A DNA stretch of 64,000 nucleotides from Algoriphagus boseongensis (GTDB lineage Bacteria; Bacteroidota; Bacteroidia; Cytophagales; Cyclobacteriaceae). Made by a program: the position numbers and the translations under genes. The stretch is from positions 62,001-126,000 of the forward strand of contig NZ_SNYF01000005.1 of the NCBI RefSeq assembly GCF_004362805.1. Reading direction: 5' to 3'. Shown here one piece after another: positions 5,732-30,948 of the stretch. Each line of letters starts with the position of its first letter. The first letter of the stretch is position 1. The notes beneath the pieces were generated by a model. It was given only the letters and a program-made list of their open reading frames with translations. It did not search any database and was not told the origin of the DNA.

Positions 5732-7113
5732 ATCAGCAATCTTTTAAAATCCGCATGGCCCGCAGACTTACGGCGGTGACAGCATTTTTGGTGCTGATTG
5801 TCTTTGCTTTGATTTATTGGGTTGTGGAATTGACCGTAGTCAACAGAATAGATCAGGAAATCCAGCTAGAACTGGATAAGCACAAGGGGCAGATTTTTTT
5901 GGTGGATGGGCAGATCAAGTTTTTGCATAAAGGGGAGTGGCAGGAAGAAGAGCATAGACAAATTCAGCTCAAACCCATTTTCATTGAGATCGTGGATATG
6001 GAAGGGAATTCCATGGATCGATCTCCCAATCTGAGGGAAAATCATTTAAGCTTTTTCCCAGATCGGGCTAACTCCGGAAAAGCATGGACGGTCAAACTTG
6101 GAGCGGAAGAAGTAAGGCAGATGCAGATTCTTCTAACCAATGCTGGACAAAATGAAGGATATCTGCTCATCGCCCAATCCTTTGAGGATGCTAGACATAT
6201 CCTGACCAACCTGAGAAATATCCTTCTCCTGCTTTACCCGGGGATATTAATTTCCCTGTTCTTGACCATGAGATATTTGGCTGGAAAAAGCATTCAGCCA
6301 ATTCAGCAGATAATCGACCAAACCAATCAGATTTCCCAAACCAACCTCAACCAGCGAGTTTCTACCCAAGAGACCAATGAGGAAATATCTGCCCTGACCC
6401 AGTCCATCAATCAGCTTCTTCAAAGACTCGAAAAGGCTATGGTTCGGGAGAAGCAATTTACTTCCGATGCCTCTCATGAGCTCAGAACTCCCTTGTCTGT
6501 CCTTAGAGGGACTTTGGAAGTATTGATTCGCAAGCCGAGAACCCAAGAGGAATACGTCCAGAAAATCCAAACTGCCTTGGGAAGCATTGATAAAATGTCG
6601 GAGCTGACAAATCAGTTGTTGACTTTGGCTAGGGTGGAAAATGGTCCAAACATCATTAAAGAGGAGATCGAATTGATCACCTTTTTGGAAGAAATTGCTG
6701 ACGAAAAATCCCAGGAATCAGGAAGAAAAGTTCGGTTTGAGACTGAATCAGGTACCCCCATTTACCTGATGAGCAGTGAAAAGTCCTTGCGGATTATTCT
6801 CTCTAATTTATTGGATAATGCCATCAAATATTCAGGACCGGATCAGGATGTGATTTTGAGAACTGGCAGGGAAGGAAATCGGGCTTTTATTGCGGTTAAA
6901 GACCAAGGCCTTGGTATTTCAGAAGAGTCGAAAGGAAGTGTTTTTGATCCATTTTTTAGAGAACAACAAGTCGGAGGAGAGCCGATTCAGGGGATGGGCT
7001 TGGGCTTGGCAATTGTCCAAAAACTGGCCGAAGAAGCCCAAATTCAAATCGAATTAGAAAGCGAAAAAGGCAAGGGAACTCAGTTTACCCTCTGGCTTCA
7101 AATTGCCGATTAA
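5728..7113 (+). CDS. Membrane sensor histidine kinase, partner of the upstream regulator
   Basis: The product is 461 residues. Helices at about 11-33 and 165-187 enclose a periplasmic sensor of roughly 130 residues, followed by a HAMP linker. The dimerisation and phospho-acceptor segment is SDASHELRTPLS with H250. ATP-binding motifs are NLLDNAIKYS (N box), DQGLGIS (G1) and GMGLGLAIV (G2). It overlaps the regulator gene by 4 nt. Its position between envelope-modification genes and a metal-efflux pump suggests that it senses metal or envelope stress; this is inference from context. Confidence 0.92.
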   Translation: MNQQSFKIRMARRLTAVTAFLVLIVFALIYWVVELTVVNRIDQEIQLELDKHKGQIFLVDGQIKFLHKGEWQEEEHRQIQLKPIFIEIVDMEGNSMDRSPNLRENHLSFFPDRANSGKAWTVKLGAEEVRQMQILLTNAGQNEGYLLIAQSFEDARHILTNLRNILLLLYPGILISLFLTMRYLAGKSIQPIQQIIDQTNQISQTNLNQRVSTQETNEEISALTQSINQLLQRLEKAMVREKQFTSDASHELRTPLSVLRGTLEVLIRKPRTQEEYVQKIQTALGSIDKMSELTNQLLTLARVENGPNIIKEEIELITFLEEIADEKSQESGRKVRFETESGTPIYLMSSEKSLRIILSNLLDNAIKYSGPDQDVILRTGREGNRAFIAVKDQGLGISEESKGSVFDPFFREQQVGGEPIQGMGLGLAIVQKLAEEAQIQIELESEKGKGTQFTLWLQIAD

Positions 7114-7118
7114 AGATT

Positions 7119-7174
7119 TTAAGCAAATCTTAAGAATTGGTTAAGCCTCGTCTAAGTCTGGCAGTTCAATTTTG
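7119..7174 (+). promoter_or_regulatory. Four 11-bp-phased TTAAG boxes and promoter of the RND operon
   Basis: TTAAG starts at 7119, 7130 and 7141, and CTAAG at 7152, each exactly 11 bp from the last. CAATTTTG at 7167-7174 resembles the minus-7 box and lies 21 bp before the ATG. The boxes at 7119/7130 stand at the same distance from the minus-7 box as those at 1997/2008 do in the upstream operon. This is a strong candidate binding site for the adjacent response regulator. Confidence 0.7.
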
Positions 7175-7194
7175 AGGAAATCTTCCTTTTCCTC

Positions 7195-10100
7195 ATGCTA
7201 GATAAGATCATCCATTGGAGTATTTCCAATAAACTGATAATCGGAATTTTTATTGCTGTTTGGATTGGCTTCGGCATTTATTCACTGGGAAATATCCCGA
7301 TCGGTGCAGTTCCTGATGTCACCAACAACCAAGTTCAGGTCATCACTACCTCTCGAAACCTTGCCACAGAAGATGTGGAAAAATACTTGACCTATCCGGT
7401 CGAATTGGAAATGGCTAATCTCCCCGGGGTAAAGGAGATCAGATCAATCTCAAAGTTTGGACTTTCTGTGGTTACCATCGTTTTTGAGGAAGACTTGGGA
7501 ACCTACCTTCCTCGTCAGCTTATCGCTGAAAGGTTAAAAATTGCGGAGGAAAAAATTCCAGCTGGTTTTGGAAAACCTTTCATGGGGCCGATTTCCACAG
7601 GACTTGGGGAGATTTATCAATATGTCATTGATGTCAAGCCGGGATATGAGGATAAATACAGCATAACGGATCTTCGGACAATCCAGGATTGGGTAGTGAG
7701 AAGACAGCTTGCCGGGATTTCTGGTGTGGTGGAGATCAATACTTGGGGAGGATTTTTAAAACAATATGAAGTCTCTGTCAATCCCGAAAGACTCAAGGGA
7801 ATGGGCATCTCCCTTCAGCAAATTTATTTGGCCCTTCAAACCAACAATTCCATTGCCGGAGGTAGCTATATCGAGAAAACCAACGAGAGCTTTTTCATCC
7901 GAGGTGAAGGTCAGATCAATAACCTGGAAGACATTGGCAATATCGTCTTGGAGGTCAGAGAAGGCACTCCGGTTTATGTCCGGGATGTTGCAGAAATAAA
8001 ATATGGTGCTGCCAATCGCTTTGGTGCGATCACAGCCAATGGAGAAGGAGAGAAGGTCCTCGGTCAGATCATGATGCTCAAAGGAGCTGATGGGAAAAGA
8101 ACCATTGATGCCGTTAAAGCGCGAATTGCGGAAATGGAAAACACCCTTCCTGAAGGCATTGTGATCAATGGGTTTTTGGATAGATCTGAGCTAATCGGCA
8201 AAACCACATTCACCATCGCTGAAAACTTGATTTTGGGATGTTTGATTGTGGTATTTGTGGTGGTTTTGCTTTTGGGAAATTTCCGCTCAGGACTGGTCGT
8301 CGCTTCGGTAATTCCATTGAGCTTATTTTTCGCACTTTCAATGATGTACGTTTTTGGGGTGGATGCCAACTTGATGAGCTTAGGTGCCATTGACTTCGGG
8401 ATCATCATTGATGGCGCAGTGATCATCGTAGAATACATTGCTTTTCAATTCACCAAATCAGGAAGTTTATTAACCGGGCTTTCTAAAAAAGAGCTTCAGA
8501 CTGAAAAGGATAAGATTTCATTCAACGGATCTTCCAAGATGATGCATTCGGCCATTTTTGGACAGATTATCATCATCATCGTATTTATCCCGATTTTATC
8601 TCTTTCTGGAGTTGAAGGGAAAATGTTCCGCCCAATGGCTGAAGTATTCAGTTTTGCCTTGATCGGGGCCATGATTTTGGGAATGACTTACGTGCCGGTA
8701 GTTTCTTCTATTTTTCTAAAATCTGAGGCACCTGGACCAAAGAACGTTTCCGTTCGAATCATCAATTTTTTAAATGGATTGTACGAGCCAACCTTAAAGT
8801 TTGCCTTGAATCATTCCAAAGCAATCCTTGCTGCAGCAGGGGCGTTGTTGATTGCCACTGTACTCATTTTTAGCAGAATGGGTTCTGAATTTGTTCCCAC
8901 TTTGGACGAAGGAGATTTTGTAATTCAACCGGTTTTGAAAACTGGAACTCCACTAACAAATACCGTAGAAACTATCACCCAAATCGAGAAAATCCTCAAG
9001 CAGTTTCCTGAAGTGAAGCAAGTTGTGACCAGAATTGGTGCGGCAGAAATCCCCACCGATCCTATGTCCATGGAAGAAAGCGATGTGATTGTGACCTTAA
9101 ATCCTCCTTCGGAATGGACTACCGTAGAAACCAAAGACGAATTGGCAGACAAGTTCAAAGAGGCTTTGGAAGTGATTCCTGGATTGGACTATGAATTCAC
9201 CCAGCCAATCGAAATGCGATTCAATGAATTGATCACCGGGGTAAGAGCTGACTTGGCTATCAAGGTATTCGGGGAGGATTTGGATGTTTTGTTAAAAACT
9301 GCCGAAGATATAGAGTCTGCAATTCAAGGGGTAGAAGGAGCTGCTGATATCATTTTGGAAAAAGTGGATGGCTTGCCTCAAATGAAAATTGAATTTGACC
9401 GGAAGAAAATAGCCCAGTTTGGATTGAATGTTTCTGACCTGAATGATGTGGTGGAAATGGGATTTGCAGGAATGACAGCAGGAAGTGTTTTTGAAGGGGA
9501 AAAGCAATTTGATCTGGTGGTTAGATTTTCAGAGCCTTACAGAAAAGATATTACTCACTTGGAAAATGCAACCATTCAATTACCGAATGGAGGCAGTGTT
9601 CCGCTTTCACAATTAGCTAAAATCACCTACACCAAAGGTCCTGCAAAAATCTCCAGAGATAACACCCAAAGAAGAATTGTAATCGGAGTTAATGTGAGAA
9701 ATCGAGATCTCCAATCAGTGGTGGACGATGTGCAAGCCATTGTGAAAAATCAGGTGACCATTCCTGAGGGGTACCGAGTGGCCTATGGTGGTCAATTTGA
9801 AAACTTACAGCAAGCCAGAAGTAGGCTGATGATCGCTGTTCCTATTGCCCTGATCTTGATTTTCATTCTCCTCTATTTCGCTTTCTCTTCTTCTAGAGAA
9901 GCTTTGATGATTTATTCCGCGATTCCGCTTTCTGCTATCGGTGGGGTTGCCCTCTTGTGGGTAAGGGATATGCCTTTCAGTATTTCGGCGGGTGTTGGCT
10001 TTATCGCTCTATTTGGTATTGCTGTACTAAATGGAATCGTGATGATCGAACACTTTAAATCCATGAAACATAAGTTTACTGACATTCGGGACTTGGTGAT

Positions 10101-27921: not shown

Positions 27922-28467
27922 TTACCAATAATCAACTTCTATCAAACCCTTCAAGCCAGAATAATTCCTAGCACTCGAGTATAAATATTCTTCCTCCTTT
28001 TCGACAATTCCTGCCCTAACTGGATTCTCATGAATATACTTCATCCTACTTTCAATCATTTCGGGCTGATACAATTCAATCGCATGGTTGTCATGAGTCC
28101 AAAACTGCAAATCGCCTGATCGCTTATTAAACTCAGCATGGTACTCAAAAATCATTTTCATCCATTCTCGCCTGCTTTCTTGTGGATTTTCTAGAACCAA
28201 TTTCAATAATTTTTTACTTGTAAACTTTTTGAAATCCCGTACCCAATCCGAAAGCTTACCGTCTTTTTGCTGAACGACCAAATGGATATGATTGCTCATG
28301 ATCACATACCCATATAAGTACAAACCTTTTTCTAACCGGCAAAAAGAAAGGTTCTCCAAAATCAAATCCCGATATACTTTTCGGGTAAAAACATCTGCCC
28401 AACCCACCACCTGAAAAGTAAGGAAATAGGGCATTTCTTGATCCCGAATCTGATAGGCCTCCCCCAT
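27922..28467 (-). CDS. REP-associated tyrosine transposase (RAYT, Y1/HUH)
   Basis: The product is 181 residues. The HUH motif is SNHIHLVVQ, and the helix with the RAYT signature is MKYIHENPVRAGIVEKEEEYLYSSARNY. IS200-like Y1 enzymes nick single-stranded hairpin DNA through a Tyr. RAYTs are domesticated or non-autonomous relatives that disperse REP palindromes. Five hairpins with matching 10-bp stems flank this gene, as expected for a RAYT and its REP substrates. The gene appears intact. Confidence 0.88.
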   Translation of the reverse strand: MGEAYQIRDQEMPYFLTFQVVGWADVFTRKVYRDLILENLSFCRLEKGLYLYGYVIMSNHIHLVVQQKDGKLSDWVRDFKKFTSKKLLKLVLENPQESRREWMKMIFEYHAEFNKRSGDLQFWTHDNHAIELYQPEMIESRMKYIHENPVRAGIVEKEEEYLYSSARNYSGLKGLIEVDYW

Positions 28468-28487: not shown

Positions 28488-28690
28488 AGCAAATTACAAA
28501 TTTGTTTGTATAGAAAGGTGTAGTTGCAAACTACACCTAGTCCTAATCAAGTTATTCTACTCCCAGAGGGGACAGCCTAAATTGAATAAGGTTTCAAAGT
28601 TCTCCCGGCCTAGAGAAACCAAATTACAAATTTGGAAAAAATAGAAAGGCGTAGTTTCAAACTACGCCTAGTCCTAATTCTATTTTGACT
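28488..28690. repeat. REP pair block A
   Basis: Two perfect hairpins: AGGTGTAGTT, loop GCA, AACTACACCT (28516-28538) and AGGCGTAGTT, loop TCA, AACTACGCCT (28647-28669). They lie 131 bp apart, each followed by AGTCCTAA. A CAAATT/AATTTG mini-palindrome precedes each. The segment around 28571-28683 is nearly identical to 29134-29240. Confidence 0.85.
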
Positions 28691-28705
28691 ACACTCAGAG
28701 GGGTC

Positions 28706-29026
28706 AAGGCCTCAAGATTGATAGGTAGTGTATCAAGGTTTATACAAATAGTATCAAGCTTGAGGAAAAAAGACTCAACGTTTATACAAAAAGAGTCAAG
28801 CTTGAGGAAAAAAGCCTCATCGTTGATACAAAAAGACTCAAAGTTCATACTCCGGGTATCAAGCTTAATATAAAAAGACTCAAGCCTGAGGAAAAAAGAC
28901 TCAACGGTTATACAAAAAGAATCAAGGTTGATAGTTCAAGTATCAAGCTTAATACTAAAAGACTCAACATATAGGAAAAAAGAATCAACCTTGAGGTAAA
29001 AAGGCTCTCTTGTAGACCTAGGAAGT
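28706..29026. repeat. Perfectly phased 21-bp minisatellite
   Basis: The word TCAA (or TCAT/TCTC/TATC-type variants) occurs at 28712 plus multiples of 21 up to 29006, 15 units with no insertion or deletion. Units alternate between forms such as ACTCAAGCTTGAGGAAAAAG and ACTCAACGTTTATACAAAAAG-like words. Both strands stay open for 60 codons or more because the unit is 7 codons, but there is no ribosome site or conserved protein, so I treat it as noncoding. Confidence 0.85.
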
Positions 29027-29059
29027 GGGGTGAAGGGGAATTTGACCATTACAAATTCC

Positions 29060-29250
29060 TGAAAAATAAAAGGGTGTAGTTAGAAACTACACCCAGTCCT
29101 AAATCTATTTTGACTACGCTCAAAGGGGACAACTTAAATTGAATAAGGTTTCAAAGTTCTCCCGGCCTATAGAAACCAAATTACAAATTAGGAAAAAATA
29201 GAAAGGCGTAGTTTCAAACTACGCCTAGTCCTAATCAAGTTATTCTACTC
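29060..29250. repeat. REP pair block B
   Basis: Hairpins GGGTGTAGTT, loop AGA, AACTACACCC (29072-29094) and AGGCGTAGTT, loop TCA, AACTACGCCT (29204-29226), 132 bp apart. This is the same paired layout as block A. The two blocks flank the 21-bp minisatellite as a long direct repeat. The tails again read AGTCCTAA. Confidence 0.85.
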
Positions 29251-29298
29251 CCAGAGGGGGGGCTTTCGAAGCACCATCTGTCAAGCTACCACTAATGT

Positions 29299-29931
29299 TT
29301 ATTCGGAGCCGAAAAGTTTCTGTAACCACGTCCGCCCCGCTTTTGGCAAGGTGCTGTTAGGCACAGTAGTTTCTTCTCCATATAGTTCTGGATATTTTGT
29401 CTGTGAAATACAACAAACACTATTCTCCAATGATTTGTCAATGATTTTTTGCCAACCTAAATTGTCAAATTGTTTTTCTAATTCAATACAAACTTTCAGG
29501 TCGTCTTCTGTTACATCATAACGGTTGTCGTCACGTGTCCCTGAAATAGCTATTTGAAATGAATTGTCGTGAACCCAAATAAACGCTTTGTGTCCCAAAA
29601 TTACTGAATGTCCAGGTTGTTCCAAGTCAGTGAATTGTTTTATGTCACTTTTAAATTTATTGAATTCGTCTGCTGGGTATGATTGTCCTATTACTGGTCT
29701 TGGAAAGTCGTCTGGTATTGTGTGTAAAGTCAAACCAAGTTGTTCAATCTTATTTATTAGGTCTTGTCGATCTGTAAATGAAAAGGCAACTTGAAATTCG
29801 TCACCGTCTCCTGCATGTCCGCCCCAAGCTCGTTTAAAATAAAAATACCGCAATTGTCGTAACCACTCTCTAATTGTCTGTTTAGAGTGTCGTTCAAAAA
29901 GCCAATTGTCTGATAGTTTTTCTATTTGCAT
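29299..29931 (-). CDS. Hypothetical protein in an integron-like cassette
   Basis: The product is 210 residues with no family I recognise. It is acidic and soluble with no signal peptide; segments such as RYFYFKRAWGGHAGDGDEF and HKAFIWVHDNSFQIAISGTRDDN suggest a globular alpha/beta protein. The ATG lies about 20 nt after GTTAGGC on the coding strand, as in integron cassettes. The last 20 or so codons run through GTGCCTAAC and beyond, so the true C-terminus may have been altered when the downstream recombination site was lost. The base composition (AT-rich, many GTC/GTCG words) differs from the neighbours and suggests transfer. Confidence 0.6.
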   Translation of the reverse strand: MQIEKLSDNWLFERHSKQTIREWLRQLRYFYFKRAWGGHAGDGDEFQVAFSFTDRQDLINKIEQLGLTLHTIPDDFPRPVIGQSYPADEFNKFKSDIKQFTDLEQPGHSVILGHKAFIWVHDNSFQIAISGTRDDNRYDVTEDDLKVCIELEKQFDNLGWQKIIDKSLENSVCCISQTKYPELYGEETTVPNSTLPKAGRTWLQKLFGSE

Positions 29932-29948
29932 TGTGTCGTCTTACTATT

Positions 29949-30083
29949 GTGCCTAACGGTTTGGCTATGGCAAGTGCGGGATTTTGAAACCGAATCTTTG
30001 TCCGCCAGACCGAATATTATTTAGTTGTAATATCTTCATATTTAAGCAGTCAACCCGCATTTGCTATAGCCGATGTTGGCGTG
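29949..30083 (-). other. attC-like recombination site between two cassettes
   Basis: This 135-nt imperfect palindrome has arms that pair as GGCTATGGCAAGTGCGGG (near 29963) against the complement of CCCGCATTTGCTATAGCC (near 30054). It is bounded on the coding strand by CGCCAAC at one end and the perfect core GTTAGGC at the other. The size and layout fit integron attC sites (RYYYAAC...GTTRRRY). No integrase gene is in the window. Confidence 0.55.
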
Positions 30084-30098
30084 TCGTGTTTTTTTCTT

Positions 30099-30686
30099 TT
30101 AATAGTGTGCCCAAATCAATTTTATGTCTTGTCCAAGTATTTCCTTTAGATTTTTAGTCAAGTCAATATTCTGATCGTCATTTATGTCAGGGTCAATTAA
30201 CTCAATTACATACTTTGAAAACCCCATAGGCAGGTCGTATTCTAAGTCGTTAAGGCTCGTCATTTTATGGCAGCAAGGTGTTAAAAAAGTCAAGTCTGAA
30301 AACGAAGTCTGATAGGCTTTGTCCATCACTTCTTGCCAATTTTCGATTTCTATTGTCTGTCCACAAAGGTTACAATTGACTGATTCAAAATTTTCACCTG
30401 AGTCTATGAATTCAACATTTTTCGTTAGAACTGAACTTATCTCATTTTTCGAAAATATAGTCGCCAAATATTTTATTGCTCCTTTCTGTTGTTCAGTTGA
30501 CGGTTCGTAATTGGGATTTGTCGGGATAATCTTTAATTGATTTCCTGAAAATGTCGATGATTCAGGTTTATAGATTAACTCGGATTTGTCGTCCGTCTGA
30601 TTTTCAATTATGTCCATAGACTTTGTGTTTTGTCCACAAGCAAAAAGTAATTGCGTAATTGTCAATATGAGTATGATTCTAGTCAT
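30099..30686 (-). CDS. Hypothetical lipoprotein in an integron-like cassette
   Basis: The product is 195 residues from the ATG at 30684-30686, giving a lipoprotein signal MTRIILILTITQLLFACGQ. A longer start at 30731 would put non-signal residues in front and is rejected. The mature part has a CNLCGQ motif and a later TPCCHKMTSL segment, four Cys that could bind metal. No family is recognised. The coding strand begins about 9 nt after GTTGGCGTG, and the complement of that 9-mer follows the gene, the arrangement seen in integron cassettes. Confidence 0.6.
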   Translation of the reverse strand: MTRIILILTITQLLFACGQNTKSMDIIENQTDDKSELIYKPESSTFSGNQLKIIPTNPNYEPSTEQQKGAIKYLATIFSKNEISSVLTKNVEFIDSGENFESVNCNLCGQTIEIENWQEVMDKAYQTSFSDLTFLTPCCHKMTSLNDLEYDLPMGFSKYVIELIDPDINDDQNIDLTKNLKEILGQDIKLIWAHY

Positions 30687-30948
30687 TTTACATGCACGCC
30701 AACGTTTGTATATGCGAAACCCGTTTCGCAAAGCATTCCAATAGGCACGCTATACGAAACTGGTTTCGGGTATTTCTCAATTAAATCCGTATTCAGATTT
30801 TCTAGGTCTTTTGTATAAGGAATGAGACCCTTCCAAAAATGCCTATTTGGCTTTCCCCTAAAAATCTATCTTCAAGATAAATGCTGTTCCCATTTCTTCC
30901 AAACTAATCCTGTAAAAGAGGAGGAATTATTTTTATCTGATTCCAATT
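30687..30948. other. Intergenic stretch with degenerate recombination-site-like palindromes
   Basis: No gene is seen. TGCGAAAC, CC, GTTTCGCA (30713-30730) is a perfect palindrome, with a related CGAAAC/GTTTCG pair about 40 nt on. The cassette boundary GTTGGCGTG (coding strand) is at 30695-30703. This may be the remnant of the attC site of a lost cassette. The region to 30948 then holds only the 3' flank of the CDF gene. Confidence 0.4.

Follow-up and report, generated by a model that had tools for sequence, protein, structure and literature searches.

The window analyzed here, a stretch of 64,000 nt (C1:62001-126000) of a 4.18-Mb genome whose relatives are Algoriphagus and other Cytophagales, carries on its minus strand the 3' remnant of an integrase gene, an attI-like site, a cassette with gene 2, a 135-nt attC site, a cassette with gene 1 and a truncated attC site, in that order (Table 1). 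An earlier reading of the DNA letters and open reading frames (hereafter, the sequence-only reading) had placed a 135-nt palindrome at 29949-30083, where it is indeed found, and its boundaries were correct to within 1-2 bases. It had also held that each cassette begins with the complement of the start of its own recombination site. In agreement with this, GTTGGCGTG is found at 30703-30695 (minus strand), 5' of gene 2, and its complement, CACGCCAAC, begins the palindrome at 30083; GTTAGGCAC (29957-29949) forms the 3' end of the palindrome, 5' of gene 1, and GTGCCTAAC (29364-29356) lies inside the 3' end of gene 1, which has its stop codon inside the second attC. The relationship holds for both window cassettes and recurs repeatedly, at 9/9 positions, in the arrays of other genomes.

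Table 1. Features of the window array and of related loci (window coordinates unless a contig or locus is named).
Feature	Position	Strand	Remarks
IS200-like (RAYT-type) transposase gene	27922-28467	-	95% aa identity to G705 counterpart
REP-like palindromic repeats	28500-29259		outer flank of array, adjoining the IS200-like (RAYT-type) gene; common to G705
attC site 2 (of gene 1), truncated	29260-29364	-	R'', L'' and centre kept; L'-R' replaced by REP-like sequence
Gene 1	29299-29931	-	ORF, 210-aa protein; final ~20 codons within attC; patchy homologs
attC site 1	29949-30083	-	135 nt, complete R''-L''...L'-R'; R1 65.5 bits, E 2e-14
Cassette 1 (carries gene 2)	29958-30703	-	start GTTGGCGTG, own R'' CACGCCAAC; boundaries read from sequence and model match
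Gene 2	30099-30686	-	ORF; predicted lipoprotein, 195 aa
attI-like site	30704-30775	-	AAATACCCGAAACC...GGTTTCGCATATACAAAC, up to GTT crossover 30703-30701
Integrase 3'-end remnant	30782-30817	-	YTKDLENLNTDL, cf. TKGFENLKSPL of intact homologs; remainder of gene gone
Tyrosine recombinase, 458 aa	C5 13364-11988	-	followed by ATACCCGCAACT...TTGCGCATATACAAAC/GTTGGCGGT (attI) and three cassettes, each with palindrome
Solitary attC	C1:15773-15907	-	R1, 80 bits
Solitary attC	C1:344774-344909	-	R1, 77 bits
Solitary attC	C1:1529168-1529303	-	R1, 52 bits
Multi-gene 4.6-kb cassette of G705	L244 1152-6660 (reverse-complement coordinates)		own 122.7-bit attC

The attI-like site aligns with the attI of integrase-bearing loci. 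The integrase remnant aligns with the end of an integrase on contig C5 of the same genome, and a similar stretch is kept in a genome of the same genus (G705); its tblastn match to integrase C-termini (E 0.07) is weak alone but lies at the expected position. Both genes, which the sequence-only reading had taken for orphans, are AT-rich and gave no family match in Pfam. Homologs of gene 2 (48-49% identity) occur in two other genera of the same class and are absent from the 7 genus and family genomes sampled; a related-locus search with gene 2 gave no matches. That reading had further proposed looking for either gene beside an integron elsewhere, and homologs of gene 2 do occur in arrays: in L181 one is cassette 1, next to the integrase, and in L026, from another genus, one belongs to an array of two cassettes. 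An Rfam search at gathering threshold returned one tRNA and nothing else.

At the outer flank, the REP-like palindromes end in CCTCTGGGAG exactly at the attC cut, both in the window (28500-29260) and in G705 (L244 ~6660-7330, reverse-complement coordinates), where the cut affects a different attC at a different point of the site. Insertion of REP sequence into attC, or deletion up to attC, may be recurrent. Between the REP elements of the window (28700-29010) lies a degenerate tandem stretch with repeated GACTCAA and AAAAAGACTCAAG motifs.

Structure and distribution of the attC sites

Since searching for AAC-hairpin-GTT by itself lacks specificity (it gave about half as many matches in a shuffled window as in the window), we built a covariance model, R1, from 53 aligned sites of other genomes' arrays, with the window's own genome left out. 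The alignment contains a 13-pair stem, in which 12 of the 13 pairs show compensatory changes on both sides. Scoring the region with an attC covariance model had been suggested in the sequence-only reading, and with R1 both window sites score on the gene strand (65.5 and 50.8 bits), the second with E 1e-10 over 29230-29364; its truncation was seen on alignment with intact sites. In the whole genome, the R1 sites are the three of contig C5, the two of the window and a further three that are solitary; every one of them lies on the minus strand of the stored sequence. The solitary sites are possibly single captured cassettes. A DNA search of the genome with the window palindrome gave only short matches, none convincing, because attC sites are conserved in structure and not in sequence.

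Among 80 attC sites, RYYYAAC cores were present in 7.5% and GTTRRRY cores in 5%, the fixed part being AAC/GTT and the following purine. The modal length is 135-136 nt, sites of ~198 nt also occur, and the centre is conserved and repetitive. In alignment A5 (columns ~32-102), this centre consists of about four degenerate copies of AAGTTTnGTGCT, an uncommon arrangement for an attC loop. In 66 of the 80 sites, it is the bottom strand that folds better (p 2.5e-10, a guide value, as sites of one genome or of relatives are not fully independent). Stem mispairs on the gene strand were A.C in 112 cases vs C.A in 19 and become T.G on the other strand. R1 sites were found in 216 of 295 Bacteroidia genomes, representing 126 of 156 genera.

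The complete platform, its recombinase and cassette exchange

A genome-wide search for an integron integrase and further attC sites, likewise proposed in the sequence-only reading, returned the further sites and a complete integrase platform on contig C5 (locus L060) but no classical IntI: nothing in the genome exceeded the cut-off of the IntI profile TIGR02249, and the C5 recombinase scored 219.5 bits, below the cut-off of 265, and was matched in two pieces. This profile was read at the cut-off only; below it, Xer proteins match in all control genomes. The three C5 cassettes encode an lnu(H/I)-type lincosamide nucleotidyltransferase, a 198-aa protein and a 182-aa protein, and their starts are complementary to their own R'' (GTTGGCGGT/ACCGCCAAC, 9/9; GTTAGCGGCCAC/GTGGCCGCTAAC; GTTAGTGTTT/AAACGCTAAC, one mismatch). 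Because the window sequence 5' of gene 2 aligns with the C5 integrase end and attI, we regard the window array as another copy of the platform, from which the integrase has been lost. The earlier description of an integrase-less attC cluster stands as regards the two sites and the lack of an intact local integrase, but an attI and an integrase remnant are present and an intact integrase is encoded on C5.

The catalytic residues R, K, H, R, H, and Y of the recombinase are conserved. The spacing from K to HxxR is 64-69 residues in 39 homologs, compared with 106 in IntI and 72 in the genome's own XerD; therefore, the IntI-specific domain is absent. In the tree, the family forms one clade (support 95/91) apart from the IntI clade (100/98), although, with long Xer branches and no established root, the tree does not settle sisterhood with IntI. 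The nearest solved relatives are IntI4 (2a3v, the best) and XerA. The N-terminal 155 residues are predicted to be a tandem duplication of a bb-a-bb-a-b unit. Of 38 members, 6 gave a PF07443 (HARP) match at E <= 0.01, and the genome's own protein, at 18.1 bits, stayed below the 25-bit cut-off; the profile match of the N-terminus to SMARCAL1 HARP (4o66) was weak (E 0.0045), and Foldseek with the N-terminal domain alone gave nothing significant (HARP E 0.18, rank 23). As a lead, the N-terminus is possibly HARP-like. The closest named match to a family query headed by the genome's own integrase was from Algoriphagus sp. AK58 (79% over the best segment), and, among 241 genomes of the order, 102 contain homologs at E <= 1e-40.

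With some homologs, the next feature is ssb and not attI. In many Cytophagales, ssb lies directly 3' of the recombinase gene, sometimes with an array behind it (ssb-following loci: L111-L115, L119-L121, L123, L140, L148, L151, L154, L156, and L166). These neighbours suggest a link to single-stranded DNA.

The site was compared among genomes at the genus level, CDF orthologs at the family level being too distant to reveal an empty site. G705 shares with the window the CDF gene, the remnant stretch and attI (74.5% over 1.2 kb); from the cassette junction onwards the homology is lost, and the cassettes are entirely different. Those of G705 are the 4.6-kb cassette with its own attC, followed by a nitrilase-like cassette, after which the RAYT flank resumes at 89.6% nt identity. 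The ORFs of the 4.6-kb cassette appear similar to defence proteins of the DarT and ZorAB types. In G525, also of this genus, there is no attI behind CDF, and ackA lies 220 bp behind it. As shown by comparison of these related genomes, one attI holds different cassettes.

Arrays and resistance cassettes in other genomes

Arrays were sought at 80 named loci with a blind chain test, which runs from the integrase stop codon and scores start-R'' complementarity (8-9/9), arm pairing and the next GTT. Two to seven consecutive cassettes were found behind the integrase in 19 of 80 Bacteroidota loci; the two controls, of 80 each, gave none. Single-cassette chains occurred at 11 further loci vs 6 in each control, and only chains of at least two are strong. 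Many of the 61 integrase loci without at least two consecutive cassettes fall short because the contig breaks off shortly behind the integrase, which is to be expected where arrays are repetitive; in several loci with long flanks (L137, L139, L157, and L205), the test detected no cassettes. Complementarity between start and R'' was 9/9 throughout arrays L116 and L126, and the longest ORF lay on the cassette strand in 69 of 76 cassettes. Cassette products (Pfam, PADLOC) include methylases, AAA proteins, abortive-infection proteins, a caspase domain and acetyltransferases, with no single theme.

C5 cassette 1 is identical at 1049 of 1051 positions to a cassette on Riemerella anatipestifer plasmid pRCAD0416RA-1 (NZ_CP073240.1, L282). 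Outside this cassette, identity falls to 34/97 and 42/89, both breaks lie at GTT, and the cassette follows attI in one genome and an attC in the other. This comparison shows whole cassettes to move between attI and attC, with the crossover, as read from the breaks, at GTT. The 12 R1 sites of the plasmid share one strand, and some of them lie immediately 3' of aadS, tet(X) (twice), lnu(I), blaOXA, estT and two phosphotransferase genes; at its 11 internal junctions, start and R'' match at 9/9 in nine cases, 8/9 in one and 4/9 in one. The multidrug-resistance region of an Empedobacter plasmid (NZ_CP104212.1, L283) is likewise an array of such cassettes, with at least four sites. For both plasmid arrays, no integrase is listed on the stretch examined.

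In Acinetobacter plasmids, the 'xerD' gene (tpnF) that precedes tet(X3) (L284, L285) encodes a protein 67.5% identical to the C-terminal half of the recombinase (214-456). It is followed by an attI-like sequence, tet(X3) and a truncated attC (25.9 bits); the tet(X3) cassette starts with GTTATGTGC, as do the tet(X) cassettes of Riemerella, and the R'' box does not match this start. This xerD is a truncated relative of the recombinase described here.

Interpretation and comparison with known systems

The interpretation given in the sequence-only reading is supported. It was right as to the kind of element, integron-like cassettes, although the attC sites are not of the classical IntI type: the array is a copy, now decayed, of an integron of a distinct type, whose recombinase and attC sites are different ones. 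It is very probable that the region is a cassette array of a Bacteroidota integron-type system distinct from classical IntI integrons. The platform would comprise a tyrosine recombinase of ~455 aa, with a duplicated, possibly HARP-like N-terminus, a core-binding and a catalytic domain; an attI just 3' of the recombinase stop codon; and a series of one-gene cassettes in a common orientation, with an attC of ~135 nt (or ~198 nt) at the end of each. In the window, no more than the last codons of the local integrase gene are left and the final attC is cut, so that gene 1 is probably locked, while the intact C5 integrase may still be able to excise the gene 2 cassette in trans. Given variable cores with a covarying stem, the better folding of the bottom strand and the asymmetry of A.C and C.A mispairs, we infer that the substrate would be the folded attC bottom strand. 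We would guess that the N-terminal domain helps to recognise the hairpin or fork in place of the IntI domain.

Recombination might instead proceed at duplex, GTT-centred sites, as with Xer or Cre, the palindrome being two inverted binding sites with a spacer and no single-stranded hairpin being formed. The Xer-like domain spacing of the recombinase and an attI that looks like a duplex inverted repeat fit such a mode; even so, we consider it improbable, since the stem arms covary while the core differs between cassettes, only GTT(A/G) being fixed, and since both the strong strand asymmetry of mispairs and folding and the recurrent ssb neighbours speak against it.

That the cassettes belong to classical IntI integrons, with the Xer-like recombinase a bystander, is very unlikely. 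A true IntI above the cut-off does exist in a genome of the same class (G037, C40:3592-4530, L058), but none is encoded in the window's own genome, and genomes of the class account for one among the 108 with a strong IntI match in the phylum sample, vs R1 sites in 216/295. Moreover, R1 gave weak matches (<=25 bits) around 17 IntI integrons of the phylum, and the arrays lie directly behind the other recombinase. As REP-like repeats and a RAYT-type gene adjoin the array, one might also see in the palindromes and boundaries the work of chance, or a REP- or MITE-type repeat without gene movement. To this we give next to no credence, given the match of an independently built model (E 2e-14), a cassette identical across orders with GTT-exact ends (the Riemerella junctions) and REP sequence that cuts attC and does not form it.

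The integron-type reading can be extended. It is likely that Bacteroidota possess an integron kind of their own, in which a Xer/XerA-like recombinase with a duplicated N-terminus resembling fork- or ssDNA-binding domains replaces IntI and acts on a distinct folded attC, with sites in about three-quarters of Bacteroidia genomes, and that it was the original mobiliser of the tet(X), estT, lnu(H/I), blaOXA and aminoglycoside-resistance cassettes in Flavobacteriia. The system appears to be widespread and overlooked in Bacteroidota. Integrons have been considered nearly absent from Bacteroidetes. If the reading is correct, a whole phylum would have a common cassette-capture system, missed by standard tools because they require the IntI domain and an IntI-type attC model; the IntI-specific domain, thought necessary for attC recombination, would be dispensable or replaced in nature; and resistance clusters such as xerD-tet(X3) would have a concrete origin. 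R1 allows such arrays to be tracked. IntegronFinder 2.0, where formerly only In0 elements were reported, now lists one complete integron, in Salinibacter, besides those of Chlorobi/Ignavibacteriae (PMC9024848), and the IntI-specific domain has been treated as integron-defining (PMC9668308). Our literature search, which covered freely available journal articles, found no description of the Bacteroidota system; one may exist elsewhere.

Classical integrons (IntI, attI, attC; class 1-3, Vibrio and other sedentary chromosomal integrons) share with the present system a tyrosine recombinase adjoining attI, single-gene co-directional cassettes, palindromic attC sites with R'' complementary to the cassette start, a crossover at G/TT and a strand-asymmetric hairpin, and the best solved relative of the recombinase is IntI4 (2a3v). 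An integrase-attI-array arrangement (C5 and 19/80 loci), G/TT boundaries and a stem with strand asymmetry, which are marks of an integron type, are found; of the marks of the classical form, the IntI-specific domain near patch III is absent and RYYYAAC...GTTRRRY cores are mostly lacking. Unlike its classical counterpart, the Bacteroidota recombinase is without the IntI insertion of ~37 residues (K to HxxR 64-69 vs 106), has a ~170-aa N-terminal duplication and lies upstream of the cassettes in the same direction, and the sites have GTTR as their only core, fixed A.C mispairs in the stem, a modal length of 135-136 nt and a conserved repetitive centre.

The window itself keeps only attI and the remnant of the platform. 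It resembles a CALIN in having two attC sites (R1) with no intact integrase nearby, but its attC sites are of another type, and attI and the integrase remnant are retained. The ISCR2-xerD-tet(X3)-res module is well described, and in the parts of the two papers covered here it is not called an integron (PMC7530245; PMC8635130). The xerD(tpnF)-tet(X3)-res module has a related recombinase, an attI-like sequence and the same tet(X) cassette start; unlike the Bacteroidota platform, the Acinetobacter module has a truncated integrase and is moved by ISCR2. XerC/XerD-pdif modules are similar in their Xer-like recombinase and in carrying resistance modules; however, pdif sites are 28-bp duplexes in inverse orientation, whereas the Bacteroidota sites are not 28-bp sites but 135-nt palindromes in one orientation, with cassette-specific cores.
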